Assembly (NCBI RefSeq): GCF_045679555.1
Contig: NC_092092.1
Coordinates: 10,664,690 to 10,728,689 of the forward strand
DNA from: Salvelinus alpinus
Taxonomy: Eukaryota > Chordata > Actinopteri > Salmoniformes > Salmonidae
Length of the DNA: 64,000 nucleotides
Reading direction: 5' to 3'
Below are positions 2,898-56,900 of the stretch, one piece after another; the first letter of the stretch is position 1, and each line of letters opens with the position of its first letter. The notes beneath the pieces are model-generated. The model was not told the DNA's origin. It ran no database searches and worked only from the letters and a program-made list of their open reading frames with translations. The translations under genes and the position numbers were made by a program.

Positions 2898-3082
2898 GAA
2901 TTTATTACTGCTGAAGTGAAAGCCATCCTCACTTGGAGAATGCTGCTTTTTAGTTAGCTTTGCGACAGTATCAAAAATACATTTTGATTGTTCTTATTTT
3001 CCTCAATTAAGTTGGAAAAGTAGGATGATCGAACAGCAGTGAGGGCTCTTCGATACTGCACGGTACTGTCTTTCCAAGCTAG

Positions 3083-4153: not shown

Positions 4154-4250
4154 TGGGGATAGCTGAGCTAACTACACTGACTGTGCTAGTGGCAGACTCC
4201 ACTAAGCAGGCATGCTGGCTAAAAGCCTGCTGCCTGGCCTGCACCCTATT

Positions 4251-31333: not shown

Positions 31334-34300
31334 TCAGTCTGGTGATGGTAGATCTTGCATTACCACAATTGCCTGTAAAGAAGAAAGAACAGAGTTTATC
31401 TTAGGCATTTCTGCATGAGATAGACACACAAAAAAGGCATTATATACACTGTACTGTATATAAACATACACTGTAATAACATTAGTTGCAGATAAGATTA
31501 TGTCTGGTTCTGTAGGGCACTTATAAACCAAAATGTATTTGATTAATTGTACTGGCATACTGACCACAGTCTACAAGCCTCAGGTCACAATACATATAGC
31601 TACGTTTTTAAAGTTTGTCACAGTACTTTACCTGTGTCTTGCTGGAACGCAGGGCAACCCTGGCAAATGATGTCATCACAATTAGGAGCACCATGCCTAC
31701 TAAGCTCTGGTACATAAATACAGCCTCAAGGCTGATCAACTGGTACTGTGATGATGAGAGAGAGCAGAGAATGAAAGGTATCTTTATTTAGACAGAATGA
31801 GAAAGGTTACAGACGTTTTAAAGATGTGTTATAAGATGTTTATCCTTTCTTTATTACATTTTAAAAGAGATTGTGACGAAGCAAATTCCTAAGCTCTAAT
31901 AATAATTGATCCAGATAACAGTGATCCGGAATCACAACAACAGCAACAAAACATACCATATGTTGTTTACGCCAGGGGACTACAACTCTGCCAGATTCTG
32001 TGGCGTTGTAGTCATAGTGGTAATGATCATAGTAGTCATGTGATTGCCGAATGTGCAGGATGCCTTTAAGGAATTCAAAGAAAGCCACTGTGACCCCCAA
32101 CATAGAGATGATACTAAGGGCCAGGCTTGCTGTCACCTACAGGGTGAGAACAAATAAAGTGGTGAAAGAACTGCAACCACTTTGTGACAACGCCTCTTTC
32201 AAGGCACTTTAACATGAGGTGAGCCGAAAATTTAAAAGGCATTTATTTGCTTGACATTTCCAGACTGAAGTACAGAGTGACAATCACATTGTGATGAACT
32301 GTTGTCAGGGTCTGGGAACAGTCCTAAAGAATAACCATCTTGAAAATTGCCACTATTTACCTTTTGCACAGTGGTTTTTACTATGACTAATAAGAAAAAG
32401 AGAATGGGATGAGGAACTGTGGTCTGACATTCATTTACGTTTTGTTTTGGTAAAAGTTACTAAATTCAAAAGGCACTCGCACATCTGAGCAATCTTTTTT
32501 GCAGGTGCATGGTAACAGTTGAACAAGACGAAGGAAAAAGGAAACCGCACACTGCTCTTGATAGTATCACGGATCTTTAATAAGCTTACGTATCGGCCTC
32601 ACGGCCTTCGGCAAAGCTTTTGTGAGTTTAAATTTTTTTTGCACCCTTATGTAGACCTAGTCCCACCCACATCCGTTCCACGCATCGAAAGGGGTTGGAG
32701 GCGAAGGAAAAACAAATAAGTGCTACCAAATATAACAATATGCATTTCATAAATATTCAAATAAAGTGTGTAATAAGACATATTAAACACGTCTGTAAAA
32801 CCACAATGAGGACATAGACCTACAGAGCAAGTTTTCATTCATCATTGGGTACATCGTACAAAAAACAGAGTAATCTTAAATAGGGGCATAATTCATGTTC
32901 AAATTCACAACATAACATACGTAGGCATTTCATCATTAAGTCCTTTAGGAAATAATGTCTGGAGGGTGATTTGAACATGAATTATGCCCCTATTTAAGAT
33001 TACTCTGTTGTTTTTTGTACGATGTACCCAATGATGAATGAAAACTTGCTCGGTAGGTCTATGTCCTCATTGTGGTTTTACAGACGTGTTTAATATTTCT
33101 TATTACACACTTTATTTGAATATTTATGAAATGCATATTGTTATATTTGGTAGCACTTATTTGTTTTTCCTTCGCCTCCAACCCCTTTCGATGCATGGTA
33201 CGGATGTGGGTGGGGCTAGGTCTACATAAGGGTGCTAATTTAAAAAAAACTCACAAAAGCTCTGACGAAGGCCGTGAGGCCGATTACGTAAAGCTTATTA
33301 AAGATCAGTGATACTATCAAGAGCAGTGTGAGGTTTCCTTTTTCCTTAATCTGATAAAAGTTACTGAAAAGAGATCTCTCTGTGGAATGCACACATGAAC
33401 ACTCACTATACACTTGTGTACAAAACATTACAAACACCTGCTCTTTCCATGACATAGGTGACTAGGTGAATCCAGGTGAAAGCGATTATCCGTTATTGAT
33501 GTCACCTGTTAATTCCACTTCAATCAGTGTAGATGAAGGGGAGGAGAGAGGTTCAAGAAATATTTTTAATCCTTGAGACAATTGAGACATGGATTGTGTA
33601 TGTGTGCCATTCAGAGGGTGAATGGGTAAGACAAATTATTTAAGTGCCTTTGAACGGGGTATGGTTGTAGGTATCGGACACACCAGTTTGAGTGTGTCAA
33701 GAACTGCAAAGCTGCTGTTTTTTTTTAACGCTCAACAGTTTCCCGTGTGTATCAAGAATGGTCAACCAACCAAAGGACATCCAGCAAACTTTACACAACT
33801 GTTAGAAGCATTGGATTCAACTTGGGCCAGCATCCCTGTGGAACGCTTTCAACACCTTGTAGAGTCCATGCTCTGGTGAAATGAGGCTGTTCTGAGGGCA
33901 AAAGGGAGTGCAACTCAATATTAGGAAGGTGTTCCTAATGTTTTCTACATTATATTTTTTATATATTGAATATCGTTTGCCATAGTTATGAACAGTAATG
34001 TGCCATGACTAATCGTTCATAATGCCTTTGCGCAGAATTCCAATTCATGGGACTCACCAGTTGTTTTGAAGGATTCTTCTCTGTGAGCACATATAACAAC
34101 CCAGAGATGATGAACTGTCACAAAGCAGAGGGAGGGGGTTTATAAGCTCAACAACAAGCAACAAGGTCTGAAAGATATCATTGAATGGAACATTAAGAAA
34201 TAAGGGTTTTTAGGACTGAAAGGTATGTCATGTTAAGACATTTGGATTGTCAGTATCATAGATTTATATAGACACACGCAAGAAAGGCGTACCAGGATTC

Positions 34301-34864
34301 CTAGCCAAAAAGGGGTGAAAGTCTCAGCAGAGGACATCAGTGTATCCAGCCTCATGGGAATCCCCAAGATGAAGAGTGATGATCCCATGAACATCATTAC
34401 AATCTAACCAACCAGGAACATAGAATAAATAGCAGCATTACAATCTAACCAACCAGGGACATAGAATAAAGACACCGAAATAATCATATGTTTACACAAA
34501 AATGAAGAGTATCTGTATCTGGTAAAATAATGTTTTCATTATGATTACTGTCGTGACATATGTTACCTATAACCATGCTATTACCACTTTATTTTGTGCT
34601 GTAATCTAAAGTGCTAACACTAAATTAATGAATGATAAATACAAACATTTTACACAAAATAAAATGTTCACAGCAGTGACTCCTTGGAATATTTGGCAAC
34701 AATGAATACATCAGTTGTTTGTTTTCCAGTCTCACCCCAGTACTCTTTGGCTCGCCTCTGATGAAGCGGTGCAGTGGTTTACTTCCTCCCACCATAGTGG
34801 TATGTGGCCCTCTTTCTCCCCCTGCTGGACTGATGTCGGACGCCATGCTCATCGACATGATCAT
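31334..34864 (-). CDS. MS4A-family four-pass membrane protein
   Basis: Six coding exons: 34736-34864, 34293-34403, 34058-34114, 31957-32136, 31632-31745 and 31334-31372. All are phase 0 with GT-AG borders, giving 209 aa. A cytosolic N-terminus (1-43) ends RFIRGEPKSTG. Hydrophobic segments follow at about 44-62, 73-91, 100-122 and 167-190. PFWLGILFIISGLLYVLTEK followed by NPSKQL and VTASLALSII is the MS4A signature (compare FWG..FIISG.LS...EKNPTKCL). A loop of about 40 residues between segments 3 and 4 is Tyr/His/Asp-rich (SHDYYDHYHYDYNATES) with a possible glycosylation site at Asn143. The family acts in immune and sensory cell membranes. The start is the first ATG of a cluster (MIMSMSMASD); the 5' non-coding exon was not found. 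An AATAAA overlaps the stop region. Confidence 0.85.
32528..33352. repeat. Large inverted repeat (about 380-base arms, 64-base loop)
   Basis: Left arm 32528-32904 and right arm 32969-33352 are near-perfect reverse complements. Both encode the same chance 63-codon frame on opposite strands. Near the outer part of each arm, reading outward, is gaaggccgtgaggccgat followed by acgtaa and aagcttattaaa. The right arm has ctgacga just before it. It lies in the MS4A intron 32137-34057. Such gaaggcc...ggccga modules occur in terminal repeats of Penelope-like retroelements, but the assignment is tentative. Confidence 0.75.
33405..33950 (+). mobile_element. Internally deleted Tc1-like element
   Basis: The ends 'aaaacattacaaacacctgc' and 'gaaggtgttcctaatgtttt' are inverted copies. 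A 33622-33879 frame gives YLSAFERGMVVGIGHTSLSV with SRTAKLL, which resembles the helix-turn-helix part of a Tc1 transposase. The catalytic part is missing. Lies in an MS4A intron. Confidence 0.75.
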
Positions 34865-34886
34865 CTGTTGAAGGATAGTGACCAAA

Positions 34887-36420
34887 CTGTAGGCATAACA
34901 ACATTGATAATACCATGACAGAGAACCAGAAGAGGGCCTTAAAAAGACAGCAAGATCAGCTGTGATGAAAATAAATGAACATTAACCTGTTTGGTTTTAA
35001 TTACTCTATAAACTATGTGGGAACAGTGTTAGAACAGTTGCAAAGCAAACCTAAAGCAGCCAGAATTGAAAATGCTTTTGTAAAGGCCCAGGCCCCAATC
35101 ATAAGGGTGTAGATCTGGGTGAAAGTTCAAAATGACATGATATTCATAACACAAAAAGATCTTAGCAACAAATGAACCATCTGAAAACAACGCCAGAACT
35201 CATCTTGCCTACATGTGACAACCATCATAAGTCATAAACTGATACGCTGATTGTAAGGTGTAGCCAGCCAGATGCTATATGCCTCATCAAAACAAGATAG
35301 CCTAAGCTTTTAGTGTTTTGAAAACATATATAATAAGGTTGAGATTGAATACTAGGTCTGAACCTATAACTCAAAACGAACTAATGTCAGATAATATAAT
35401 GTGTTGTATTCGTCTGAAGAGAACTGCAATATTCATCAAACAGTTCAACATCAACAAAAAAACATCACTGAAATTGCACAGAGAACCATAGAACCTATGA
35501 CATAGATAATATGATCACTTTCAAATGAAATTTGATTACTGTCTGTGACATATGTAAACATTCTAATCTAAGTTTTGTTAATAAGAGAACCTAACCTGTT
35601 TGTTACAAATTCACAAATAATTGAACTGTAGCATATTTAACAGATAGATACTCTGCATGTATAGCATAGAAAGTAGTGAAATAGTTACAGACCTGGCTTG
35701 CCTGAAACAAAACTGCGTAGATTAACTAATATTACACAACTGGAGAGAGATATTTACATGAGGGAGACGGGTGGGTGTGGGGATGGTTGGGCGGGAGTAT
35801 GATAGGGCCACAGAAACGTGCTTACAATGGAATCTGTCCCTAAACATTTAAAGAAAATGAACACTTTTGAGCGAGGTAGAAAGAAAAGACAGAGCAGAGT
35901 AGGACGTTGCCATCGTGCACTACAGGTTTATTTTGTTTATTCATGTTGAATGACCGTCAGTTGAATTTCGAAGAAAAGACATCGCTGGTTTTGTTCTGCG
36001 ACCCCAGCTGCTTTCCGACATGAGAGATGAAGAGAGAGCATGGAGAAGAGTACTGGGGGATGGGACATGCGTTAGGGGCTTAACAGAAAGCAGAGGGAGT
36101 GGGAGGGAGAGAGAAAAAAAGTTTTACACAATGTCTACTTTCATTTGGCTGTGGGTGAGATTGCTAAAGTGTTTCGTAAGGAAGAGGGAGAAGAATGAGA
36201 TGAGATGGATCATAAAGGGTATAAAGGAATGGTTTGAAGCAATATCTGGGTGTAACATCCTACACATTCAGGATTCAGAAAATATTCCATGCAGAGATGC
36301 TTTCTGAGCTAGTGAATAAGGGAAGAAATTGAGACATAAAAGGATCAAGATAAAATTGTAGCTTACCAAACTGTTGAGTTGATCAGTTGACTAAATCAAG
36401 AGGTAATCGTTCTGAACTTT
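34887..36420. other. Upstream region of the MS4A gene, no coding feature seen
   Basis: Probably holds the 5' non-coding exon and promoter of the MS4A gene. A 95-codon frame at 36020-36307 has no recognisable domain or splice context and is not annotated as a gene. Confidence 0.4.
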
Positions 36421-36537
36421 CCAACAAATGTTCACTTTTAGGTTTTCCTGATCACTGAACTCAACTTATATGTTTCTGGCCGTCGAAAACAAGCCTTTTT
36501 AGCAATGTATAACATTCCCCAAATTTTATGAGACCAT

Positions 36538-36600
36538 TCCCCCCCCCCGCCCACTTCCAGTCCCCCCCTCACTTCCAGCCCCCCCCCCCCCCCTCCCCCA
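36538..36600. repeat. C-rich low-complexity tract
   Basis: Runs of 8-14 C residues separated by short spacers (cccccccccgcccacttcc and following). Open frames across it are artefacts of base composition. Confidence 0.9.
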
Positions 36601-37324
36601 TCTTCCCCAACACAGCTGTGGAGGAAATCATTCTCTTCGCCCAACCTAGCCTAAACTCCCTCCCTCGCTCTCTCTCTCCACACGCATGCACATGAACGCA
36701 CGCAGTAAGAGCTGACTCAAATGTTTGTTTACTCTGTGCCTGTGTAGGTTTATTGATTATGGAATAAACAGAAATATCAGGTAACCATGCAACCGCCAAC
36801 CGACATATCCAATTCAATTATATTAATTTGCCAATCTATGGCATTTAAAACAGTTGAGTATATGAGTTATGGCCAATAGGGCAAATGATGACCAATACTG
36901 CCTACAAACCTAAGGATAGGCTTGGTCTAGTAAACCTTATGTAACGTTATTTCGTGACACTGAACAGGAACATAATACACTTGACCTTTTATTTGGGGTT
37001 ATTCACATGGTGATTCACATGCAGTGTCACCTTCGGGTTGGGTTGTCTCGGTGGTTATGTAATAGCGTGTCATTTCAAAGTTCAAGTTGAATAGATGGCT
37101 GTGATTTACAGTAATAGTATAATTTAGAAATGGTGTATCAGCCGTGGAGCATGACAGACATAATAATGCTCTTTCTAATTCTGCTGAGTGGACAACAGGG
37201 ACATTTAGGCTTCTATGCCAAAGTGACTAATGATCTGTGATACTGTATAAAGGTCATGAAGTGCGTCACTGTATACTGAGCCAAAATTTTGTCAAGGGGG
37301 GATATTTTTCTCCCACCTTAATTT

Positions 37325-38340: not shown

Positions 38341-40112
38341 CCGTAATTTCTGGACTATTAAGCGCACCTGAATATAAGCCGCACCCACTGAATTTAAAGA
38401 AAATATGTATTTTGTACATAAATAAGCCGCACATGTTTATAAGCCGCAGGTGCCTACCGGTACATTGAAACAAATGAACTTTACACAGCCTTTAAACGAA
38501 ACACGGCTTGTAACAAAAATAAATAGGCTTTAACGAAACACGGCTTGTAACAAAAAAATAAATAATTGCAGTAAACAGTAGCCTACCAAGAAAGTCATTG
38601 GTCACTATCTTCCTCCTGTGCACTGAAACCACTGAAGTCATCTCCTTCGGTGTCGGAGTTGAATAGCCTCAGAATTGCTTCATCCGATGTTGGATCGTTT
38701 TCATTGTCGCTCTCGTCACTTTCATCCGGAGGCAAATTCCCCGCTGAGCTCATGCTGCCCTCTTCAACACGCAGCAGTCCAGCCTTTCGAAACCCGTTGA
38801 TGATAGTGGATTTTTTGACAATGCTCCACGCTGTCAGGACCCACTGGCAGACTTGACCATAAGTTGCTCTTCGCATGCGGCCCGTTTTAGTGAAGGATTT
38901 CTCCCCACTTGTCATCCAAGCCTCCCACTGAACACGGAGCGCCACCTTAAATGCACGATTTACACTGATGTCGAGTGGCCGCAAATAATTTGTTGTGCCT
39001 CCAGGATTAACAGCTGGAATTGAGTTTGTCCTCTTGATGGCTTCTTTCACAGAATCTGTTATGTGGGCCCTCATGCTGTCCAACACGAGCAATGCCTTGT
39101 TCTTGTGAAAGAATCCTCCCGGTCGCTTGCCGTAACACTCCGTATGCCATTCATGCATTAGGCCTTCCGTCATCCATCCTTTCTTGTTGACTTTCACAAC
39201 AATTCCTCCCGGGAATTTTTCTTTTGGCATCGTCATGCGTTTGAAAATCAACATCGGTGGAAGCTTTTCTCCCGATGCCGTGCAGCTCAGAACACAGGTG
39301 AAGTGCGTTTTTTCATGCCCAGTTGTTTTCAGCGTGACGGATGATTCGCCTTTCCTGTTGACAGTCCGAGTGAGAGGCAGGTCAAACGTCAGAGGAACCT
39401 CATCCATATTTATGATGTCGTGCGGGCCGATGGAATGCTCCGCTATCTTTGCATCAGTGAATTTGCGGAAGTTTTAAACTTTTTCCTCGTAGTCGGGAGG
39501 GAGCTGCTGACACAGACTCGTCCGTACCCTGATGGACAGGCCTTTACGTCTCATAAATCTTAGACACCACGATGGTCCACCTCTAAAATCCTCAAACTTC
39601 ATTGCGGTGGCGATTGTTTTGGCTTTCAGTCGGATCTGCACAGTTGAAACACCTCGGCCGTCTGCTCTCTGTGTGTTGACCCAGTCTTCAAGCTCATTTT
39701 CTAGTTCGGGCCATCTGCTTTTCTTCCCTCTGAAAGGTTTTGTTGTCTTTTTGCACTGAGTCAGTTCCTCACGCTGCTGTTTCCAACGTCTTATCATCGA
39801 CTCATTAAGGCCAAGCTCCCGTGCAGCAGCTCTATTTCCTTTTCCAACAGCCAGACCTTCAACTTGAAAGCTGCATCATATGCATTTCTCCGTGTCTTTG
39901 CCATGATGAGGGTGACAAAATGACTACCCTAATCAGAATGATGGGAAGTTTGAGCGCGCTCGATTTACGTCACATTATGTGACGGTGCTCAGTTTTTTGG
40001 CGGCATGAATCTTGTGAAAGCGGGAAAAATCCATAAATTAGCCGCGTCATTGTATAAGCCGCGAGGTTCAAAGCGTGGGAAAAAGTAGCGGCTTATAGTC
40101 CGGAAATTACGG
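38341..40112 (-). mobile_element. Tigger/pogo-like DNA transposon
   Basis: A 1,772-base element with terminal inverted repeats (ccgtaatttctggactatta at the left, ending gtccggaaattacgg at the right) and TA on both sides. Copy 2 of the duplication shows the empty TA site at about 41080. It encodes one long, nearly open transposase on the minus strand, so this is a fairly recent insertion. Confidence 0.9.
38595..39904 (-). pseudogene. Tigger/pogo transposase, nearly intact
   Basis: Reading starts at 39904 (MAKTRRNAYDAAFKLKV), then the CENP-B-like helix-turn-helix region (NRAAARELGLNESMIRRWKQ; WCLRFMRRKGLS) at 39474-39800. The DDE catalytic domain follows at 38595-39407: DIINMDEVPLTF, KALLVLDSMRAHITDSVK and TNYLRPLDISVNRAFK. 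An acidic C-terminus ends FSAQEEDSDQ. A small deletion near 39860 shifts the frame, and one TAA (after YEEKV, about 39474) interrupts it. Otherwise the frame is clean over 400 codons. Related domesticated proteins (JRK, TIGD, CENP-B) share this layout, but the terminal repeats show this is a transposon. Confidence 0.9.
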
Positions 40113-41083: not shown

Positions 41084-41528
41084 GATTAAAGTGAACTGAT
41101 GCATGCCAATACCTTAGTACCTCAGCAAATGGACTAGCACCAAGGACCACTAAGCTGTACCACTGAGGACAGTGAAACATGGAGGAGCTCAAATTCAGAG
41201 GGAGGAAAAGGGAAGGGAGGCACAGGTTAGTTCCATTAATCAAAAATCATTTCATTCAGTTCACGTGAGAATCATTTCAATCAAAACTGTTAGGATTCAC
41301 AGGGCCTGATCTTGAAAATAATTAGCACTGTAGACATGGAAAAATATTCTACCTATACTGAAATCACACTAAATAGAAGTAATACAACTATATCATGATA
41401 CAACGATACTATGTACTACGGTAGATATCATTTACCATTATTGGGAAGCTACTGAGAATTTAGTTTTGAAGATATATAATATAAGGAAGCAAAGTTGAAC
41501 TCAAATGCTCCTTATCGCGGGCCGCTGC

Positions 41529-41926
41529 TGTCACGTTCTGACCATAGTTCTTTTGTGTTTTCTTTGTTTTAGTGTTGGTCAGGACGTGAGCTGAGTGGGC
41601 ATTCTATGTTGTGTGTCTAGTTTTCCTGTTTCTATGTTTGGCCTGATATGGTTCTCAATCAGAGGCAGGTGTTAGTCATTGTCTCTGATTGGGAACCATA
41701 TTTAGGTAGCCTGTTTTGTGTTGGGGTTTGTGGGTGGTTGTCTTCTGTCTTTGTGTCTATGCACCAGATAGGACTGTTTCGGTTTTTCACATTTGTTGTT
41801 TTTGTAGTTTGTAGTGTTCACGTTTATTGTCATTATTAAACATGATGAACACTAACCACGCTGCGCTTTGGTCCGATCCCTGCTACACCTCCTCTTCAGA
41901 CGAAGAGGAGGAAATCTGCCGTTACA
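41529..41926 (+). mobile_element. Solo LTR (fossil), second family, GCTGC target duplication
   Basis: A 398-base insert beginning TGTCACGTTCTGACC and ending GTTACA. It is flanked on both sides by GCTGC. An attaaa polyadenylation-like signal lies near its 3' end. This LTR family is widespread in salmonids. No internal region is present. Confidence 0.85.
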
Positions 41927-43190
41927 GCTGCTTTGTTCTGATAATGCTGAAATTATCCTCGGCAGTGTGTGAGATGTCACTAGAAGCTGTTATAATTGAT
42001 CTATTACTCTACGGAGGATATAGTGTTATAACAATAGATATTAGATCAATACTGACATTGTTATATTGAAAGAAAGCCGTTTAATAGGAATTAAAACACC
42101 ACTAACATCTTACAATGTAATATTTGTTAAATGACTACACACATTATATGCTTAAAATAAGTGTTTTGAGACATTAGAATCAGCATGATATTGCAATGAT
42201 TTCATGCTTTAGGATCAATAATAGCATGCAATTATAGGTATGTAAACCGATCAATAGATGAAAAGTTTTAAATATATAATTGTTAGATACTACTGCACTG
42301 TTGGAGCTAGGAACACAAGCATGCCGCTACACACACAATAGCATCTACTAAATATGTGTATGTGACCAATAACATTTGATTTGATATATCTTTTTAAATG
42401 ACCGAATCTGTGGATTTTTTTGTCTAATACTATCCATCTAAAAGACCAGGGGTTCGCAATCCTTTCGGGTAACTCTACCCACAATTACATTTTGCTCTGC
42501 CTGAAGTAGGGGAGACTGGAGGAAATGTTTCTATTTTACTCTATTGCTCAGAGACCACTTGAACTAGGCCAGTCATGTTTTGATATAAGAAAGGTACATA
42601 TGTCTCCTAATCATTCATACCATTTATAGGTATGTACGTAAGATGGTCGGATCACAATATCGATTTTAATCCGAAAAGACTGGATGTTAAATTTTCCCTG
42701 TGGCACGGGCAATTCTAACAGTGGTTGGGGTCAATTGTGACACCCAAAAAAGAATTCAAATAAATGTACTTAACTTCAAAACATTCATGTTCATGAATCA
42801 TCATATGTAATAATTTTGCTAGAAATATTAGTATTTCTATGTACTTAACCAATAATTACAGTAACACCCACGTTTGTGCATGGCCATTTGGTTCTTCTCA
42901 AAACATCTGAATAGTCTGATGGTGCCCAAATGATATCTGTTTACAAATTATTTGGCACTCTACAGGACCTCAATGCTATTTAAAGTTAGTATTTGTAAAT
43001 TTCATGTATAATTCATACAATCTTAAAGTTAAAATCATTTGTTTTCATAATTTGGCTGCTTGGCTCAGGGTAATTTTAACACTACTTTACAATTGCCCCC
43101 AACCCAGCTACCATGACAAAACCTCATGTGCTTAGCAACAGACAATATTAGTGACAACGTCATTCATGTCAAAGTTTAGCCGACATACTT
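41927..43190. other. Intergenic stretch with a LINE tail
   Basis: No gene recognised. The only assigned feature is the LINE 3' end at 42285-42386. The first exon of the downstream chitin synthase gene may lie here or in the next 1.6 kb but was not identified. Confidence 0.4.
42285..42386 (+). mobile_element. 3' end of a LINE (family of 26690-28695)
   Basis: The text atactactgcactgttgg, then agctaggaacacaagcat and gtgaccaataacatttgat, matches the 3' terminus commonly seen for this salmonid LINE family. It ends in a tttgatttgat-type repeat tail. Confidence 0.65.
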
Positions 43191-43562
43191 TACACTATCG
43201 ATCAAAAGTTTTAGAACATCTACTCATTCAAGTGTTTTTCTTTCTTTTTACTATTAACTACATTGTAGAATAACAGTGAATACATCAAAACTATGAAATA
43301 ACACATATGGATTAATGTAGTAACCAAGAAAGTGTTTTAAAAAATCAAAATAGAGTGTGCAAAGAAAGCTGTCATTAAGGCAAAGGGTGGCTCTTTGAAG
43401 AATCTCAAATCTCAAATATATTTTGATTTGTTTAACACTTTTTGGTTACTACATACTACATAGTTTTGATGTCTTAACTATTATTCTACAATGTAGAAAA
43501 TAGTAAAAATAAAGAAAAACCCTTGAATGAGTAGGTGTTCTAAAACTTTTGACCAGTAGTGT
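43190..43562 (+). repeat. Tc1-derived MITE
   Basis: It has the two ends of the family at 29428-31146: left 'gatcaaaagttttagaacat', right 'aaaacttttgaccagtag'. It also retains the last part of the transposase (VCKESCH-like, aaggcaaagggtggct). Most of the interior is deleted. Confidence 0.85.
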
Positions 43563-44299
43563 ATAGTGATAAAAATTATGCTAGTTTGAATTATTGCGAA
43601 TGAATTCTCAGGGCAGTAAGTAAAAATACTTTCACCCCTAAAAAACTAAAATGTGCCCATAAAACATGCAAATAGTGAAATATTTGGCTGTGACTTTACA
43701 AGCAAGGAGACAACCCAAATGTGCATGTCCTGTGTTTCATCACTCTAGCTTGTTTGTGTTTGGAGAAATGCAAGGTGTTACAGTGTTATGGGTCTTCCAA
43801 CTACCCCCTGTGGATAGGTTGAGAACCACTGATCTAGAACATCATCAACAGACTATTCAGATCAATTATTTGAGAACACCGTCAACATTTTGCCCCCTCA
43901 TTCAATTCAGTTTTATTCAGTAAACCTGGTGGACATGAGGTTGTTTACATAAGGTTGAGATAATGGATAATGGTCATATCTTAATTAGGGCGATTCACCA
44001 TGTAGGGCTGGTCACAATTGGGTTGGGTGCGCTTGGATGCTTATACTGGCGCCATAGTTATGTCAAAGCCAAAGCTCATTAGATAAGGTAAGACTGGCTC
44101 TCTGAATACAGACCGACCGGGCATCATTCAGGGGTATGACATTGTCAGAACCTACTGCACCCAATTAGCAGTTTCATTTCCAATTCTACTGATTCAATAG
44201 TGGCTCATTTAGTGTCACCTTTGCCTGACACCCATAAACACTGAGGCTCCTTATTGCTATTATAAACAGGTTACCAACATTAGAGCAGTAAAAATAAAT

Positions 44300-44395
44300 G
44301 TTTTATCATACCCGTGGTATACGGTCTGATATGCCATGGCTGTCAGCCAATCAGCATTCAGGGCTCGAACCACCCAGTTTATAATGGATGTTATA
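44300..44395 (+). repeat. Dispersed salmonid repeat fragment
   Basis: The segment 'atatgccatggctgtcagcc', then 'aatcagcattcagggctcga' and 'accacccagtttataat', is a recurrent salmonid repeat phrase. Element type not determined. Confidence 0.5.
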
Positions 44396-44451
44396 TGATG
44401 TCACTTGTGACTTACTTCCTTTGACCCAATGATGAACTACTAAAATCATTT

Positions 44452-44662
44452 ACAGGTGTAGGATCTTAATTAGATTACCCTGTTGTGCAGAAAATGTCAT
44501 GCACAGCAGGAAATGCAAAGGCTTCTAAAGTTTGTAAAAAATAAATGTATCAACCCTTAAAAAAAATGTATAATGTTAATTATAGTCCACACAATAATTC
44601 ACATTTCCTGTTGCTGCAGGATAATTTTCTTGCTGTGAGAAAATTAAGATCCTACATATGTA
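44452..44662. repeat. MITE with TGTAGGATCTTAATT ends
   Basis: Terminal inverted repeats tgtaggatcttaatt at 44456 and aattaagatcctacat near 44644 enclose about 170 bases with a secondary inverted pair (gcagaaaatgtcatgcacag and ctgcaggataattttcttgc). Ends about 180 bases before the first visible chitin synthase exon. Confidence 0.85.
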
Positions 44663-44838
44663 CCTTCCCATCACTGGATATAACATATCTTCAAGTCAGA
44701 CATTACAGTAACACTCTATACCGCTACACTTTATAAAGGGTTTATAAAGACTGGAAGTTATTATTTTAAGAACGGTTTATGAAACAGTAATGAACAGTTT
44801 TAACAAACTGTTTGAAATTGTGTTCGATACTGTCACAG

Positions 44839-47800
44839 AGACACCTGGGATCCATTCCAGTTGAATCCCATTGGTGCTGAGAAAGAGGAAAAGAGAAGAT
44901 GCTTTGAGTTGTTCCAGCACCTGGTGGCAGCATTCGTGGGGATAATGGTCCTGTGCAGTGCTGTCATCAGCAAGGTGAGCCAAAATGAGGGACCAGCACC
45001 CAGTTTAGTCTAGACAGGATACATCTTATGTCAGAATTTACTTTTTATAACAGGTGGGGAGAACTTACGCAGCAGGTTAGGATAATTAACGTAACAGGTT
45101 ATGACAATTAGGTTAAGATTAGGAAAAGGGTGCGTAAGATAAAATGCAAAAGAAATATCAACTTTTGACATCAATTTATTTTATTTTATTTACTTTTACC
45201 CCATTTTTTTCTCCCCAATTTCGTGGTATCAAATTGGTAGTTACAGTCTTGTCTCATCGCTGCAACTCCCGTACAGACTCGGGAAAGGCGAAGGTCATGC
45301 GTCCTCCGAAGCAAGACCCAACCAAGCCGCACTGCTTCTTGACACAATGCCCCCTTAACCCGGAAGCCAGCCACACCAATGTGTCAGAGGAAACACCGTA
45401 AACCTGGCGACCGTGTCAGCGTGCATGCACCCGGCCCGCCACAGGAGTCACTAGAGTGCGATGGGACAAGGACATCCCTGCCAGCCAAACCCTCCCCTAA
45501 CCCGTACGATTCTGGGCAAATTGTGCGCCGCCCCATGTGTCTCCCGGTTACGGCCGGCTGCGACAGAGCCTGGACTCGAACCAGGATCTCTAGTGGCACA
45601 GCTAGCAACTGCGATGCAGTGCCTTAGACCACTGTGCCACTCAGGAGGCCCTTGACATCAATTTCACATAAACTGTATCACATCTAGCATTGACCCCAGC
45701 ACCATGAACCTGGAAACTACTGTATCAAGCATAATACCTCCTGGGATGTCATCTTATAATAATATATAGATATATCGAATCCATACCATATCAGATACAT
45801 TCCCACAACTCAGCATTGATGAATAGTATACAAGGGAAGGGGTTCTTTATGGGTTCTTTATGAGACAAATCTCAAATCTGCGAATTGTAATTCGGAACAT
45901 ATCATACCAAATTGGGTAATGGACATCCACAAATTAATTCGAAGGTCATGCGTGAAAAGCCAACTGAAAATTATTCATGATTATTATTTGACCATGCTTG
46001 TCACTTATGAACATTTTTGAACATCTTGGCATAGTTCTGTTATAATCTCCACCCGGCACAGCCAGAAGAGGACTGGCCACCCCTCATAGCCTGGTTCCTC
46101 TCTAGGTTTCTTCCTAGGTTTTGGCCTTTCTAGGGAGTTTTTCCTAGCCACCGTGCTTCTACACCTGCATTACTAGCTGTTTGGGGTTTTAGGCTGGGTG
46201 TCTGTACAGCACTTCGAGATATTAGCTGATGTACGAAGGGCTATATAAAATAAAATTGAATTCACACCATACAAAACATAAAATATCATACTAAATGGGG
46301 CCTCAGATTTTTGTACAGAATAATATGAAGTGCTCTGAGACCAGTTTGACACCCTAGACACTTAGTACTACTCTCCTATCTGTTTTTTTTCTCTCTAACA
46401 CATACACTGCTAACACTATGAAGGAATTGTTCACACTCATTATGTAGATCAGTGTTTAAATGAATGAATCTTAGATTCTATAATATTAGGAGTCTGATGT
46501 CAGTTGTGTTTACATCTAACCCGCCAGGGCTCTCTACTGGTTCTCTCCACACTCTCAAGCCCCACATCGACTAGGACTTCCAAGGAAAGACAATATTACA
46601 TGCTCATGCTGGTGGGCTGTTTGGTGATGCCCAACCTGCTCGTGTTCCTCAAGTCACTGTGGAAATGCGCTTTCAAGAACTTCGTCCCACCAAACATGAG
46701 AACTATGGGAATTGTAAGTTGAAATATTATACAATTTGACTTCTTGGTGATCTTTGTATGTCTTAATTGCTGCTCAAATTTCTTGCTGTCAGTGTTGGGG
46801 AATTCATTTCTAATCTATGCAGTATTTTCAGTAGTTAGTTATATTCTCACCATGTAGCGGTGTAGCTAACTACTGGAAATACACACTGCTTTTTTTCTGC
46901 AAAAAGAAAAGAAAATAGGGGAGAACTAGGCAAGAATTTCCTTTATTTTTCGGGCATTATACCTGCCTAATTCTCACTTGAAACATTGTGTTTGTGTTAA
47001 ATAGGCTAAATTAAACATTCTGTTAACATATGACCGCAAAGTAATCTGACCTTGCAATTTGTAGTCTATGAAATTTCAGATTTACATATGATAATATTTC
47101 ATGAAGTAGTTTGGATGTAGTGAACTCCTTTTCAAAGTAACTTTACTTTTTTAAGGATAGCTTTAGTGTAGCTTCTCTTCTTCCAGTGTGAAGTAATTGG
47201 TAGCCTGGTAAACTATATTTTCAGAGTAGCTTCCCCAACACTGCATGCTGTCAATACAAACTTAAATGTGTATTTTTCAGGTGTGTGGGATTGAATGCTT
47301 GGTGTCTCTTGGGACCTCCATCCTGGTGCTGGTGGTGATGCCCCAGTTTGACGTGCTGACCAACCTCTTTATCTCCGGGGGAGTCTGCATGCTTTCCTCA
47401 GTCCTACAGATTGTATTTCGTCTGCAGAGAGAGAACTGGAAGATCATCTTCCCCATTTGTTCTCTTATGCTTGTCCTGACCGGCTACTTTCTCCTTGGGG
47501 CAGACTATTACGTCCGGGTAACCTCTTTTGTATCAGGGCAGGAGAAAGACTGTTATTGGTATGTTGGCATTGCAGTTTTTGCATCTTTTTTGGTTTCTCT
47601 GAACTGGTGGGAAAACCCAGTGCAGGCGAGCAACAACATGAAAGAAATGCTGGCCGAGTTGGACACCTTCAGAGACTTTGTATTTGTGATATCGAGTCTC
47701 CTAAGGGTTGTAGTCATTGCTGCTGTGTACCTCATCTACCACGTATTGATACAGAAAAACATTGTATGGTCAGATTTTGATTTCACCCCTAAGGCCAATG

Positions 47801-50800
47801 AAGATGAAAGTACAATTGCGAGGCATAAAGAGACCCTTGATATTGGTCTTACTGTACTTTTCCTTCAAGCCTTTTTCTCTGCTGCATGCCATTGGTTTGG
47901 AGTGGTGGCTTGTAAGATCCACTCTGTGCGAATGAGCTTCGCCTTCCCTGTCTGTTTTACCGGGCCCTCTGTTCTCATTATCGGCATGATCCTTTTCCTA
48001 ACGCAATCTCAATACCTAGCTGGGGCCAACACAACTTCTATCATTGACTTTTGCTCGAGCCTAGTTGACCTGAGCACCAAGAACACCAGCGCAGTCGTGA
48101 TGCTGGAGCTCACAAAGAGCATCTGCAGGACTTCTTTGAGTAGCCATTACTGGACCTGGCCTTTCTCCCTACTTGTGCTGGAGGGCATTTGCATGTGGCT
48201 CGGGCTCATCACATGCACCTACTACGTGTGGAACTTCAAGGTCCAGAGGATCGAACGCACAACTGAGCTGTTTGTACGACGCCTCTATGAATCTGCCTTC
48301 ATCGACCTGTCTCTGCTTCTGAACACCAAGATGAAGGTTGTGCAAACGAGGAACCAGGAGAGGCAAGATTTTGCTATTTAATTGATTAAAAGTCCACGTG
48401 GTTTAAGACTTCACATTGCAACAGTGTAAATAGACATTTGTTCAGTAATTGTTGAGTTTTGCCGACAGTGCACTATATAAGAAAGAGTCTTAGTGGTAGT
48501 GTGGTGAAATACACTTAATGACATTAACTCTGATCACTCTGCATTCAAACATGATTAGAAATGGTTCTCTATCCCCCCCTCCTTCCAAACATGTTCTCAT
48601 ACTTTCCCCATGTTTTTCATTCTACAGTAGTGTTGTTGACGACGTGGAGAATTGTGTCATTTACCTCTGTGCAACAATGTGGCATGAGACCTATGACGAG
48701 ATGTTGAAGATCCTCACGTCCATGTTCAGGTATTGTGCTTATCAATTTCGCTGGCTGTGTTTGATATTTAAATATTTCTAGCCCTGAAAAGTTATTTAAT
48801 ATAAATTCACAATGTTAGTGTGTGTGAATGAGTTTGTGTGTGTGAGTGTGTGCAGCAGAGACCTCTTGTATACAACACAAGACAATGACCCCGTACACAC
48901 CGCACTCAAGTTGTATAACTCATGTAGCCTTCAACACATTTGTCACTTGTTGTGATAGAGTTTTTCTGCACAAAAATAATTACACAAGCGTTGTGGAGAC
49001 ACCGTAAAATGGTTGTGTAAACATGTTTGTACAGACAAACTCTCCATTGTATTACAAAAATATCAGCTATGTCACAACCATTGTGTGAAATGCGTTCCAC
49101 ATCAGTTGTACAACCTTAGCGTGTACAGGACCAACAGACTTTGACAAAATACAGTGAATGATAAGGAGGTGATTATTATAATGTTTTGCATAAAAATAGG
49201 ATGTTCACTTAACATGTGTCTTGATGGTTTCAGGTTGGACCGGTACAGAGGTGACCCAAAAGAGGAACATAAAGATGTTTTTGACTTTGAATGCCACATA
49301 TTTGTAGATGACGCATTCATGATAGACAAGGAGACGGGCAAAAAGTTTATCAATGAATATGTGACCGATCTCATTCATGTGGTCATAGAGGTTTACAGGT
49401 AAGTGGACATTTTGTTTTTCTTTGCACTTTACTCCCTATAAACCCAGACCAAGTGTCAGTTAATGAGCACAAGCAAGCTCTACTTTAAGATGCATTCACT
49501 ATAAATGGGGGAATTCTATAAATCCAAAAGACTGCCAACTGTTTCATAATGAATCTTGAATGTTTGTGCATTTCAGGGTATTCACCAATAAGGAGCCCGA
49601 TGACGTGTCAATTATTGAGACTCCTTATGGTGGGCGATTAATGTTTGTGATGCCAGAAGGAAACATGCTGTATTTCCATTTGAAAGACAAACAGCTAATC
49701 AGAAACAAGAAGAGATGGTCACAGGTGAGTAGGATGATTTTCAATATTACTGTATTCCATGATTTCACCACTGTTAACCTACATTCTTTAAACATACTTG
49801 AATTACTTTTCTTGAAGAACATGAATATATTGTAATTGCTTTTTGGGGTTTTAGTATGGACACACTTTAAAATTAAAGAGTTATAAGTTTGCATCTGACA
49901 TGTCTTTCAGATCATGTACCTCTACTATCTGCTTGGATGGAAAGGATACATTGTCAAGAATCCTCAAAAGATAACGGTATGTAATATATTTAATCCCCGC
50001 AATACAGCTGATCTGTAAATATAAAAAAATCAGTAGCGAGCCATGGTTCCATGGTTTCCCTAAATGAATGTGTATGATTTTCTTTGTATCTGTCTTCTAC
50101 AGAGACAGAATAATCCTTGCCGTGCCAGTCTCATATCACTGGATGGGGAGAGTTTCCTGTTGCCACAGCATGACAATGACAGTAAGAGAAAACACATCTC
50201 TGATGACAATACCTACATCATGGCCCTGGATGGAGACACAGACTTCCACCCCTCAGCTCTGATATTACTGGTGGACCGACTTCGGAAGTACTGCAATGTG
50301 GGTGCTGCATGCGGACGAATCCACCCTACAGGAATGGGTGAGTAGAGCTGATGTTGATACACCCTTTACCGAAGAGTTAGGGGATCCACTCAGACATGGC
50401 TATGTCCAGCATACTGTATATTTCAAGTGCATCTATCCGTATTGCAGAAGCGTTGCGAAGGATCCGCGTTATAGCTCGCGTGAAATGTAAAGGCAGTGTT
50501 CCCGCGTTCGAGGAGACTGCATCCACGGTATACGCTGCATATGTCGGCTCAATCGGAAATTAAGTTGACATTTTATCGCGGATCTTCTGCGATACTTCCA
50601 CGATACGGAGCCCCTAATCCAATTCCAACCATAACCACTGAGAGACAATATATCAACATGTCTCGCTACACTATAACTGAACTGACATGCATTGATTTCT
50701 ATTTTAGGTCCAATGGTGTGGTATCAGAAATTTGAGTATGCTGTTGGTCACTGGCTCCAGAAAACAGCTGAGCACGTGTTTGGTTCAGTCCTCTGCAGTC

Positions 50801-53800
50801 CTGGATGCTTCAGCTTGTTCAGGGGATCAGCTCTGATGGATGACAACGTGCTCAAGAGATACACCACCACTGCAACTAGAGCCTCTGAGTATGTTCAATA
50901 TGATCAAGGTGACTACTTCCTTATTCTCCCATCAACAGCACTTGGTTGTCAGTATAGGCTACTGGAGTATTAGACTATACCACAGGAGGCTCATAGACGT
51001 TTTATCACAGTTTCTTAAGCTATTTATGTTGGCTTCAATCGACCAAGGGTAACATAAACTCAGCAAAAAAAAGAAACGTCCCTTTTTCAGGACCCTGTCT
51101 TTCAAAGATAATACGTAAAAATCCAAATAACTTCACAGATCTTCATTGTAAAGGGTTTAAACACTGTTTCCCATGCTTGTTCAATGAACCATAAACAATT
51201 AATGAACATACACCTGTGGAACGGTCGTTAAGACACTAACAGCTTACAGACGGTAGGTAATTAAGGTCACAGTTATGAAAAGGACACTAAAGAGGCCTTT
51301 CTACTGACTCTGAAAAACACCAAAAGAAAGATGCCCAGGGTCCCTGCTCATCTGTGTGAACGTGCCTTAGGCATGCTGCAAGGAGGCATGAGGACTGCAG
51401 ATGTGGCCAAGGCAATAAATTGCAATGTCCGTACTGTGAGACGCCTAAGACCGCTACAGGGAGACAGGACGGACAGCTGATCGTCCTCGTAGTGGCAGAC
51501 CACGTGCAACAACATCTGCACAGGATCGGTACATCCGAACATCACACCTGCGGGACAGGTACAGGATGGCAACAATAACTGTCTGAGTTACACCAGGAAT
51601 GCACAATCTCTCCATCAGTGCTCAGACTGTCAGCCATAGGCTGAGAGAGGCTGGACTGAGGGCTTGTAGGCCTGTTGTAAGGCAGGTCCTCACCAGACAT
51701 CACCAGCAACAATGTCACCTATGGACACAAACCCACCGTCGCTGGACCAGACAGGACTGGCAAAAAGTGCTCTTCACTGATGAGTCGCAATTTTGTCTCA
51801 CCAGGGGTGATGGTTGGATTCGCATTTATCGTCGAAGGAATGAGCGTTACACCGAGGCCCGTACTCTGGAGCGGGATCGATTTGGAGGTGGAGGGTCCGT
51901 CATGGTCTGGGGCGGTGTGTCACAGCATCATCGAACTGAGCTTGTTGTCATTGCAGGCAATCTCAATGCTGTGCTTTACAGGGAATACATCCTACTCCCT
52001 CATGTGGTACCCTTCCTGCAGGCTCATCCTGACATGACCCTCCAGCATGACAATGCCACCAACAATACTGCTCGTTCTATGCGTGATTTCCTGCAAGACA
52101 GGAATGTCAGTGTTCTGCCATGGCCAGCGAAGAGCCCGGATCTCAATACATTGAGCACGTTTGGGACCTGTTGGATCGGAGGGTGAGGGCTAGGGCCATT
52201 CCCCCCAGAAATGTCCGGGAACTTGCAGGTGCCTTGGTGGAAGGGTGGGGTAACATCTCACAGCAAGAACTGGCAAATCTGGTGCAGTCAATGAGGAGGA
52301 GATGCACTGCAGTCCTTAATGCAGCTGGTGGCCACACCAGATACTGAATGTTACTTTTGATTTTCCCTTTGTTCAAGAACACATTATTCCATTTCTGTTA
52401 GTCACATGTCTGTGGAACTTGTTCAGTTTATGTCTCAGTTGTTGAAACTTGTTATGTTCATACAAATATGTACACATGTTAAGTTTGCTGAAACTAAACG
52501 CAGTTGACAGTGAGAGGACGTTTTGTTTTTTTGCTGAGTTTACATATTTACTGGCTCATTAAGTGTTCCCTAGAGATAATCACTAAGTGTGCAGCTGTCC
52601 TAGGACCTGATAAGTATATTCATTTCCTTGAATCTTCCCTTTTCCCGCTGGCCAGGTGAGGACCGCTGGCTGTGCACCCTGCTCCTCCAGCAGGGCTGGA
52701 GAGTGGAGTACAACGCTGCGTCCGACGCCTACACCAACTCCCCTCAGGAGTTCAAAGAGTTTTACAACCAGAGGCGGCGCTGGGGGCCGTCTACTCTGGC
52801 CAACACCCTGGACCTCCTGCACAGTGGCAATGAGACGGTCAAGAGGAACTCTTCCATCTCCAGACTGTACATCTTCTACCAGATATTTACTGTCAGCTCC
52901 TCCATTCTCGGCCCTGCCTCTGTGTCTCTGATGATAGCAGGTACCTGTTCTGTTCATTCTTGTTCATTGTACACACTCTTTTATGTCTATATGTTGTTAA
53001 CCAATATTCATTATACGACCTAGAGTAACTAGAACTGAAGTGCCACATTTTCCCTTAAGTCAAGTTATATATTTTATTTTTATTAAGGTGTATATCAGCT
53101 TTAATATTGCAGATTGATTGTTGTTTCTATCAATGTAATTGTCTGTATCATTTCCAATCCCCCATATATATTTTTTTGTACATACTGTATATTTGTTCCC
53201 CGGGCGCCGAAGACGTGGATGTCGATTATGACAGCACCTCTCTGATTCAGAGGGGTTGGGTTAAATGCGGAAGGCACATTTCAGTTGAATGCATTCAGTT
53301 GTATAACTGACTAGTTATCCCCCTTTCCCTAAAATATACAGTGTATATTTTCCTTTATTATTTTCCCCTAACCCAACCACCCCTCCCTAATTGGAGTAAA
53401 CTAATGGACTAAAATACTTAGGCTTCTACTTCCAGCTTATTCATACTATAAACATTTCACAGACACAGTATATTTTACATTAGCTTTATTTTGTTTGTTT
53501 TTAGTCCCACCCTTCAGCTTCCCTCAACCCCTCCCATCTATCTCTGAAGACCATCCAGTTTTTCTAGCTGCCATATATTTTTCCACTGTGCTGTGATGTT
53601 TCACAAAAGTTCTGAACCTTTCTATTTTCATAGTTTCTACAGATTGTAAATGAAAAATAAATGTTTTTGCTAAGAGTATTATTGATTGAGTGATATACAA
53701 CATTCTATTGTCACGTTAAGTATTTTGAATTGTCAGTAAGTTCAAAAGCTCAAAGTCAGGCTGAGAGCCAGCTGGGTGAACGAGATTACATATGACTACA

Positions 53801-56800
53801 CATTTTAGGGCACAGGGCTAAAGGACAAACAGTATAAAGTATGCCTACCCATCAGTTATGACTTTTGCTTTGGTTCAATAAAACCATAAAAGTCATGAGG
53901 TGAAGATGAGGTCAAATTGTATTTTTTTAATGTGCTATGATATACAGATCTCCATCCCAGGAAGTATTCACTCTTTTTTCTGTCTTCCTCTTTAGGTGCT
54001 TTTCAGTTTGTGTTCAAAATTGAAGGAACCAATTCCATCATCATATCAGTCATCCCACCTATTTTCTACATGTTAATTTGTTTTTTGGCAAAACCAAACA
54101 CCCAGATCACCATTGCAGCCATTATGAGCGTGTTGTACGCCTTTCTGATGTTAGCATCATTCTTCGCCATCATCGGTAAGCTTTGGCAATGACTCTTCAC
54201 ATGATCATTCACTCAACACACAAAACCAAGTTGTTTATGCAAAGATAAAGGTTACCTATAATCTTTTAAAGGGTGGCGGCTGGTGTTAAATGAGTCAGAC
54301 TGTTACGATACACATTTCATTTCATGCGTTCCCCAGGTGACATGGCTACGCAGGGCACATTCATCACCCCAACTGGCCTCTTCCTGGTTTCCATGGCTGC
54401 CATGTACCTGGTGACAGCCATCCTTCACCCCCAGGAGTTCAGCATGATCATCTATGGTCTGATGTACTTCATCTGTATCCCCAGTGGCTATCTCTTGCTC
54501 ACAATCTACTCCTTGGTGAACATGCACATTGTCACATGGGGCACTCGAGAGACAAACAAGGAAAAAGAACAGAAGAAGAACCAGAATGTTCTCTGTGATC
54601 GAAACTGCAAACTTTGCTGTTGGGATATGAAACTACAAGTCACCCAAGAGACGGATAACTTGATGCTCCAGCAACTCCAGCAGGCAGTCAATCCAAACAT
54701 ACAAGTCACCCAGCAGGTGGTGCATGAACAGAAGCCCAACACCAAGGAAGAGAAAAACAATGCCCCAAATGAAGAAAACAATGAGGAAATAAGTCCAGAG
54801 CTTTTAGACCGCAAAAGAGCCAATAAAGACTTAGAATATGATACAAGGCATGTACAAAACATTTCACAAAGGCCCAAAGGACCTCGCTCATATACTGTCT
54901 AAAACAAACGTCTATCAAATGGAGGGCCTGTTGTTACCTGTTGTAACTTTTCATCCTCTTGTTCACAGCAGTGTTGACAGGTTTGACAGCATTCCTAAAA
55001 AGGAGAGCGCCTATTCCAGCATCGAAGATGACAACGATGATAACCATGACGATGATGATGATAATATGCTTTATGACGGTTCGCTTTATAGTGGCTTCAC
55101 GGAGGAAGAAAGAGAATTTGTACCTCAAAGTGGTAGGTGGTTCAGTACATGAAAGAGTATAGCTGTAACCTACAACATACTGACTTTTTGTATGTAACTA
55201 CAAGTTGAATTATAAATCAACAGCACCTCTACACAATTTGCTTTCAATAGATTGGGTTCAGCCTGTCAAGGAAGAGTTCCTGAAGAAATTGACCTACGCC
55301 AACTTGAAAAGGAACCTTCAGGAGCAGATCCGTTACACCCTGAGAAACAAGAACCAGGAGGATGTGTGTGAGGAGCTGGTAATGATGCTGACGGACACGG
55401 TGAACGGAGAGCTGAAGGACAAGGTGGGCCCAGAGGACGTGCTGAGCGACAGCCAGCTAGAAGAGCTGCAGTACGCCCTTAACGAGGCCGCCAGGAGGAT
55501 CCTGAAAACCAACCGAATGGAGAGGCTTGAGAGGAGGGTAAAAAGAGCCATAGAGAAAACCCTCATTGCCCCACAGGTGGAGAAACTCACTGAGGTAATG
55601 TTTGAGTGAAAACACACCCGTTCATATTGTATTTAATGTTATATTGTATTGCCTGGTGTCTTACTGGTAGCAGCTCCGGACGTTGTTTTCTCTACATCTG
55701 TGACCTGGGATGGACTTCAGCAATAAGTTGACTGAGTACTCTGGAACCAGACCCTTTGAGTGATAATCTGAAGAACAGATAGTGTTGGGCAACAATGTGT
55801 TCCAATAAAATGAGCAAATATACATACCATGTTTCCCTATGCATTTTGGCAGGATGAACACGACTTTTGGAAGAAACTACTTGAGAGATACCTCGCACCT
55901 ATTGTTGATGATAAAGCTCATAAAGAGGAGGTGACAAGGGAACTGAAGTCACTACGAAACAAGGTGGGCTTTTCTTGTTTTATACTATTTATTCACTATG
56001 TTCTACTAAACACACATGGCTCGTAGAATGATCATATTTTGTTTTTGTTGTTTTACAGGCAGTGTTTCTGTATTTCATCGTCAACGTTTTGTGGATTGTG
56101 GCCACTTTCTTTTTACAAGCCATTGGAAATGATGTGATTAGTATCAAGATTCAGAAAATCTGGCCAAATGGCACATCATCAGGAGAATACCTGAAGGTGG
56201 AGCCTCTCAGTCTGATGTTCCTCTTGTCATTCGCTGTGCTTCTAGTGGTGCAGTTCCTGGCTATGCTTTACCACAGGTGGGCAAACATTTCTCATTTCTC
56301 AAACACAAAATGATATATCTACATAACACCACCATTGCAAACATGCATAAGAGGACAGAAATGTCAAAATAAAAGGCAGAAAGACAAATAGAATAAGATT
56401 ACAATCTCATGCTGTGCGCCTTATGACAGTTTAACACATTTTTTTTCTCTCAATGCAAGCAAGTGATTAGTTTCAGTTATCTTATGATGAGTCTTGATGA
56501 AATCAAACTAAAAGTACACTGTGTTGTTTCTCTTTTCAGAGTTTATACTCTTATCCACGTGGTGTCGTACAGAAGCACAGAAAAAGACTACATTCCCAGA
56601 GACGAGGTGAGTGATCTCTGCTAATCCAAACAACAAGGAGGATAAAGTACATCTAGTCGCCATCTACCTGATTGTAGATTATTAATAATTTGAGTAATTA
56701 TGGTGCAGATATACTGAATATCTAACAGGTTAATAAATGATTTACTAGTCGTTGTGTGAAAAACAACTATTATGAAGACCTAAAATGCTTCTTGTTGATC

Positions 56801-56900
56801 ATTGTATTTCTCTCCGTTGCTTGTGCAGGAGGGCGAGGAGGGGGTGATTATTGAGAACCAGATAGCCAACGGCCTTGTGATCACCAGTGATGACTTGTGA
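44839..56900 (+). CDS. chs1: Chitin synthase (animal type), first exon not seen
   Basis: Eighteen coding exons: 44839-44974, 46528-46713, 47281-48362, 48628-48729, 49234-49398, 49577-49724, 49911-49976, 50103-50337, 50708-50908, 52656-52940, 53996-54175, 54337-54847, 54969-55132, 55251-55594, 55853-55963, 56059-56276, 56540-56606, 56829-56900. That gives 1,423 residues without the N-terminal exon. Multiple membrane segments (1-450) precede the GT2 core: CATMWHE, FVDDAF, NKKRWSQIMYLYYLLG, ALDGDTDF (about 669-676), GRIHP, EDRW (775-778), QRRRW (812-816) and WGTRE (996-1000). C-terminal membrane segments follow. It polymerises GlcNAc from UDP-GlcNAc and extrudes chitin across the plasma membrane. 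Chitin synthase genes are known in fishes and amphibians. Exons ending 48362 and 54847 require GC donors. Near 1110-1130 is an Asp-rich run. No stop interrupts any exon, so the gene looks functional. Confidence 0.93.
45205..45653 (-). mobile_element. Long tRNA-derived SINE in chitin synthase intron
   Basis: On the minus strand it starts gggcctcctgagtggcacag, has a tRNA-like B box (ggttcgagtccaggc), and continues for about 450 bases. The body includes ggcgcacaatttgcccag and cttcggaggacgcatgacct. It resembles the AvaIII/SlmII type of salmonid SINE, though the name is uncertain. A second, shorter copy is at 58408-58763. Open frames across it are not genes. Confidence 0.8.
46020..46262 (+). mobile_element. 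3' end of an L2-like LINE (RSg-1-like)
   Basis: Near-identical to the 3' UTR of the LINE at 269-480 in reverse: 'ggcacagccagaagaggact', 'ttcctagccaccgtgcttct', 'tttggggttttaggctgggt', ending ataaaataaaattga. Strongly 5'-truncated. Lies in the first visible chitin synthase intron. Confidence 0.85.
46790..47243. repeat. hAT-type MITE just upstream of chitin synthase exon 47281
   Basis: Ends cagtgttggggaa and ttccccaacactg, 454 bases. Flanked by cttgctgt and catgctgt, an 8-base target duplication with one mismatch. No coding content. Its right end lies only 37 bases before the exon, so the acceptor and pyrimidine tract are host sequence but much of the upstream intron border is MITE-derived. 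The same family is split by the LINE at the window start. Confidence 0.9.
51055..52543 (+). mobile_element. Tc1-like transposon in chitin synthase intron
   Basis: Ends 'aaactcagcaaaaaaaagaa' and 'tttttttgctgagttta' are inverted copies, with the conserved gaaacgtcc and ggacgttttg next to them. It sits in the 50909-52655 intron in sense orientation and carries a recognisable transposase. Confidence 0.95.
51331..52347 (+). pseudogene. Tc1-like DD34E transposase
   Basis: Starts MPRVPAHLCERALGMLQGGM with a helix-turn-helix (TADVAKAINCNVRTVRRL). The catalytic part shows LFTDESQFCLTRGDGW (first Asp), MTLQHDNATNNTARSM (second Asp) and, in another frame, EHVWDLLDRRVRARAIPP (Glu). It ends NAAGGHTRY. 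Frame changes lie near 51470-51600 and near 52140, so the copy is broken but only mildly diverged. Confidence 0.9.
53195..53330 (+). repeat. Dispersed salmonid repeat fragment in an intron
   Basis: The phrase gggcgccgaagacgtggatg, then attcagaggggttgggttaa and ttcagttgtataactgacta, is a recurrent salmonid repeat tail. It lies in the chitin synthase intron 52941-53995. Nothing else was recognised there. Confidence 0.55.

Follow-up and report, generated by a model that had tools for sequence, protein, structure and literature searches.

The closest described counterparts of the gene analysed here are chs1a and chs1b of Atlantic salmon, which the published description assigns to teleost chitin synthase subclade II, places on chromosomes 28 and 1 and derives from the salmonid duplication (PMC10234404). 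The same account describes expression of subclade II genes in the pyloric caeca and gut, and reports the motif CATMWHxT in subclade II only (PMC10234404). Among animal enzymes more broadly, most type I chitin synthases are described as carrying one or two C-terminal SAM domains and type II enzymes as having none (PMC3942024). A chitin synthase gene of the tilapia O. mossambicus, Om-CHS1, is described as expressed in the gut epithelium (PMC6109156), and work cited in PMC6109156 and in PMC10234404 reports chitin from the gut of zebrafish and the scales of salmon. The stains with which chitin has been visualised in the guts of zebrafish and Ciona are described as not specific to chitin (PMC6109156).

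We analysed a 64-kb stretch of fish DNA (C7:10664690-10728689, hereafter the window), for which an earlier note, made from the letters alone, had proposed an intact animal-type chitin synthase gene. This proposal is supported by the reading frame, by the family match and by constraint relative to a duplicate on a second contig, C3. The window holds a complete and well-preserved chitin synthase gene, real but of an already known kind.

Gene structure and the first coding exon

Exon boundaries were picked by eye from the reading frames and splice sites in the window, and each exon was then checked against the C3 duplicate. Eighteen exons on the forward strand (44839-56900, here A to R) splice to one frame of 1,425 codons, in which the single stop is the terminal TGA at 56898-56900. 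Read in the two shifted frames, the spliced exons contain 76 and 82 stops, while 149, 135 and 143 stops occur in the three frames of the joined introns (~2,596 codons each); the open frame of the 18 exons is therefore not due to chance. The GC content is 0.472 for exons, 0.398 for introns and 0.595 for third codon positions.

All of the exons lie on the forward strand. Exon A (44839-44974) encodes an N-terminal segment (DTWDPFQ...) and the first hydrophobic segment, exon B (46528-46713) encodes a hydrophobic segment, and exon C (47281-48362), with 360 whole codons and a GC donor, encodes the large N-terminal transmembrane block. CATMWHET is found in exon D (48628-48729), DDAF in exon E (49234-49398), LDGDTDF in exon H (50103-50337), QKFEY in exon I (50708-50908), and both EDRW and QRRRW in exon J (52656-52940). 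Exon K (53996-54175) forms part of the C-terminal transmembrane cluster, which also extends over exon L (54337-54847), together with WGTRE, the start of a variable linker and a second GC donor. Exon M (54969-55132) encodes an acidic linker and exon N (55251-55594) a charged segment, for which the only Pfam matches are below the cut-off. The last hydrophobic segments are in exon P (56059-56276), and exon R (56829-56900) ends in the stop codon. Exons F (49577-49724), G (49911-49976), O (55853-55963) and Q (56540-56606) were defined on the same basis as the others. Relative to the window, exon L is 6 bases longer on C3 and exon M is 15 bases shorter. The signature motifs that the earlier note had listed as lying in uninterrupted exons, CATMWHE(T), DDAF, (A)LDGDTDF, EDRW, QRRRW and WGTRE, are indeed each present once in the single spliced frame.

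The position given for the start of the gene, 44839, did not hold, as exon A begins inside a codon and its frame, followed upstream, reaches a stop without an ATG. Comparison with the C3 duplicate identified a further coding exon at 41179-41225 on the forward strand, which encodes MEELKFRGRKREGRH plus two bases of a codon that exon A completes as Arg (AGA in the window, AGG on C3). The 15-residue peptide is identical in the C7 and C3 copies and splices in frame in both, the donors are conserved (CAG/GTTAGT in the window, CAG/GTAAGT on C3), and the start codon has an A at -3 and a G at +4. Among the aligned ATG-to-donor candidates this exon was the best, with a summed donor score of 21.2 compared to 15.8 for the next, a two-codon candidate. 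Taken by themselves, donor score and start context did not single out this exon: the accepted ATG ranked first among 16 candidates and second in listings of 4 and of 6, and it was the comparison with C3 that settled the choice. The coding part thus extends from 41179 to 56900 on the forward strand, with 19 coding exons and 1,439 amino acids.

Sixteen of the 18 introns are GT-AG (15 of the 17 within 44839-56900); the other two, which follow exons C and L, are of the GC-AG type, with donors at 48363-48364 and 54848-54849. The GC donors were chosen because no GT donor that we saw gave the needed phase; the same two introns are GC-AG on C3, where each of the 18 introns has a GT or GC donor and an AG acceptor in the corresponding position. 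The description of the gene as interrupted by repeats was also borne out, with two introns containing sequences that have copies elsewhere in the window and a third containing a Tc1-like element. The sequences at 45296-45653, 45982-46254 and 46850-47138 have window copies at 83%, 93% and 80% identity, respectively, and the first has two more window matches at 80% and 74%. Two short salmonid repeat tails gave two matches (a number equalled in 6 of 100 shuffles) and one match (1 of 100 shuffles), and neither result decides the species. The Tc1-like element, a degraded transposon on the forward strand in the exon I-J intron (51055-52542), has 27-base inverted ends that are 93% complementary and a frame (51587-52186) with a DDE_3 match above the cut-off and an HTH_Tnp_Tc3_2 match below it. 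The element is missing from the C3 duplicate, where its flanks abut.

Related loci and constraint between the duplicates

Of 13 candidates scored in a Pfam search of the assembly (2,367,770,401 bases, 928 contigs), at least eight matched at E up to 0.001. C7, C3 and C29 contributed two matches apiece, and C9 and C4 a single match apiece. Together these reveal two chitin synthase loci beyond the window gene, the close duplicate on C3 and a distant paralogue on C29; no second copy was seen within the window itself. Exon C matches C7 itself, C3 at 93% and C29 at 38%, as well as a fragment on C3 that is 85% identical and contains two stops. The fragment (C3:66167551-66167982, reverse strand) is a decayed partial copy of exon C in the exon A-B intron of the C3 gene and was not seen in the window copy; a second alignment of it covers 144 residues with one stop. 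The C29 locus (~38736818-38741460, forward strand) retains the catalytic motifs. It belongs to the same family as the window gene, with the same order of motifs, but differs by reading CATMWHEN and by its 38% identity in exon C, and is probably a member of teleost subclade I. The C9 and C4 genes, in which we read QQTRW and WGTSG, are presumably hyaluronan synthases, judging from the motif.

CATMWHET is present in the window gene and on C3, and the contrast with CATMWHEN on C29 fits the difference described between subclades II and I. Like chs1a and chs1b of Atlantic salmon, which lie on different chromosomes, the genes on C7 and C3 form a close pair on separate large contigs, and, compared through the published description, CATMWHxT, QKFEY, EDR and QRRRW are shared (PMC10234404). 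Given the salmon pair and the distribution of CATMWHET and CATMWHEN, the window gene fits a salmonid chs1a or chs1b, or a gene closely equivalent to them. The reading as a salmonid is based on the size of the genome and the pattern of copies, compared with those of Atlantic salmon (PMC10234404).

The C7 and C3 proteins are identical at 1346 of 1434 aligned residues, with seven gapped columns left out. Over the 1,434 codons, dN is 0.030 and dS is 0.216, giving a pairwise dN/dS of 0.140 (95% bootstrap interval 0.107-0.180, 300 rounds) that averages over both copies. A dS near 0.2 would fit the salmonid genome duplication. Constraint is strongest in the catalytic region, with a dN/dS of 0.02 over 377 codons and 373 of 377 residues identical, compared to 0.14 in the N-terminal block, 0.18 in the five-segment cluster, 0.40 in the linker and 0.09 in the C-terminus. 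The two coding indels, +6 and -15 bases, are multiples of three. From exon A on, 93.4% of aligned exon bases are identical (3978 of 4257), as are 86.8% of the aligned intron bases (2717 of 3130, from introns that total 7,789 bases and are over half unalignable).

The linker dN/dS of 0.40, compared to 0.02 in the catalytic region, and the two length changes raise the tentative and rather unlikely possibility that the two copies are starting to diverge functionally by way of the acidic linker, which lies between the membrane cluster and the C-terminal segment; in that case their regulation or partners may differ and the polymer would be the same. The same figures are accounted for by a flexible linker under relaxed constraint.

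We also considered whether the window gene is a recently inactivated pseudogene with a frame that is still open by chance. The decayed copy of exon C on C3, with its in-frame stops, indicates that such sequence does decay in this genome, and the Tc1-like insertion is present in the window gene and absent from the C3 copy; the insertion, however, sits in an intron. The entire frame and all splice sites have been retained since the duplication (dS 0.216), the catalytic-region dN/dS is very low, and the changes that could be polarised are not in excess on the C7 copy: C29 covers 60 of the 88 residues that differ, and among these 10 changes are assigned to C7, 11 to C3 and 39 not polarised. We therefore regard inactivation as very improbable; the C7 gene behaves as a maintained gene and not as a relic. 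This fish thus retains a chitin synthase gene and its duplicate under strong constraint, and the catalytic motifs are also preserved at a third locus.

Family assignment and predicted function

In a Pfam search, the window protein matched Chitin_synth_2 with an E value of 9.5e-26, scoring 91 bits where the cut-off is 27; matches to two general GT2 models were also obtained. The NCBIfam matches were limited to NodC and PgaC/IcaA, both below their cut-offs, and no Rfam match reached gathering scores. A search of PDB sequences at E up to 0.01 gave seven matches, the best six being chitin synthases (1.2e-15 to 5.6e-7) and the seventh and weakest hyaluronan synthase 1 (7.9e-5). In the alignments shown for four of the seven, EDR and WGT align in all four; three also align at QRRRW, and the fourth has QRKRW there. 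The hydropathy profile has 24 overlapping peaks, of which 13 precede the catalytic core and 11 follow it; in insect chitin synthases, transmembrane segments are likewise laid out on both sides of the core. A Chitin_synth_2 core between transmembrane blocks is also the arrangement described for animal type II enzymes, among them those from insects, Danio, Xenopus and Ciona, and the window gene shares with these the absence of a SAM domain (PMC3942024), none having been found in the 428-residue C-terminal part with E values up to 1. On the basis of these sequence features, we consider it almost certain that this is a functional teleost chs1-type gene (animal type II, teleost subclade II), with activity and role taken from its family.

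A hyaluronan synthase or another GT2 enzyme would share part of this profile, given that hyaluronan synthase 1 is among the PDB matches and that the same Pfam model finds the two genes on C9 and C4 that read as hyaluronan synthases. The hyaluronan synthase motif is QQxRW. The window gene instead has QRRRW and WGTRE where the C9 and C4 genes have QQTRW and WGTSG, its protein has a long N-terminal membrane block, and chitin synthases score far better, leaving this assignment scarcely credible. Contaminating arthropod or fungal DNA is equally hard to credit, as the motifs are common to insects and fungi but the locus lies inside an 89.7-Mb contig of a 2.37-Gb assembly, has introns with repeats copied elsewhere in the window (five matches, 74-93% identical), lies downstream of DDX21-like and BTB zinc-finger genes in the same window and has a colinear duplicate on another contig.

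For a chitin synthase of this type, we infer the activity, topology, tissue and role from the family. The 1,439-residue protein is predicted to reside in an epithelial membrane, where the glycosyltransferase-2 core (DDAF, LDGD, EDR and QRRRW) would take UDP-GlcNAc on the cytoplasmic side and link GlcNAc by beta-1,4 bonds. The chain would be pushed outward through the transmembrane block of the enzyme, and the product would most likely serve a chitinous gut lining. Thus read, the gene is in keeping with published accounts of a chitinous gut lining in ray-finned fishes, and this fish likely makes the polymer, which the earlier note had taken to be implied by the intact core. The claim in the earlier note that fishes keep and mammals lost chitin synthase genes is in line with what is printed for teleosts and mammals (PMC10234404). 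Chitin synthase genes of Atlantic salmon and the presence of chitin in fish have already been published; the reading of the window gene is correct but ordinary.

Neighbouring sequence in the window

Other recognizable sequence lies upstream of the gene. On the reverse strand, 9247-13501 contains pieces of a nucleolar RNA helicase 2 (DDX21-like) gene, with pieces of the DEAD domain and a GUCT domain. Nucleolar RNA helicase 2 is the best PDB match for two of the pieces, and the piece at 9589-10002 has no Pfam match. A BTB/POZ domain and C2H2 zinc fingers are encoded on the forward strand in two adjacent open stretches (20467-22404) that are probably one BTB zinc-finger gene. Remains of mobile elements were detected on the reverse strand at 1331-4171 (a LINE, with reverse transcriptase and endonuclease), 24158-24972 (a DDE_Tnp_1_7 element) and 38595-39875 (a DDE_1/Tc5-type transposon). 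Finally, ~2.8 kb of DNA upstream of the chitin synthase gene (34032-36872) aligns to C3 at 76% and contains two open frames of at least 85 amino acids; this sequence may be regulatory or genic.
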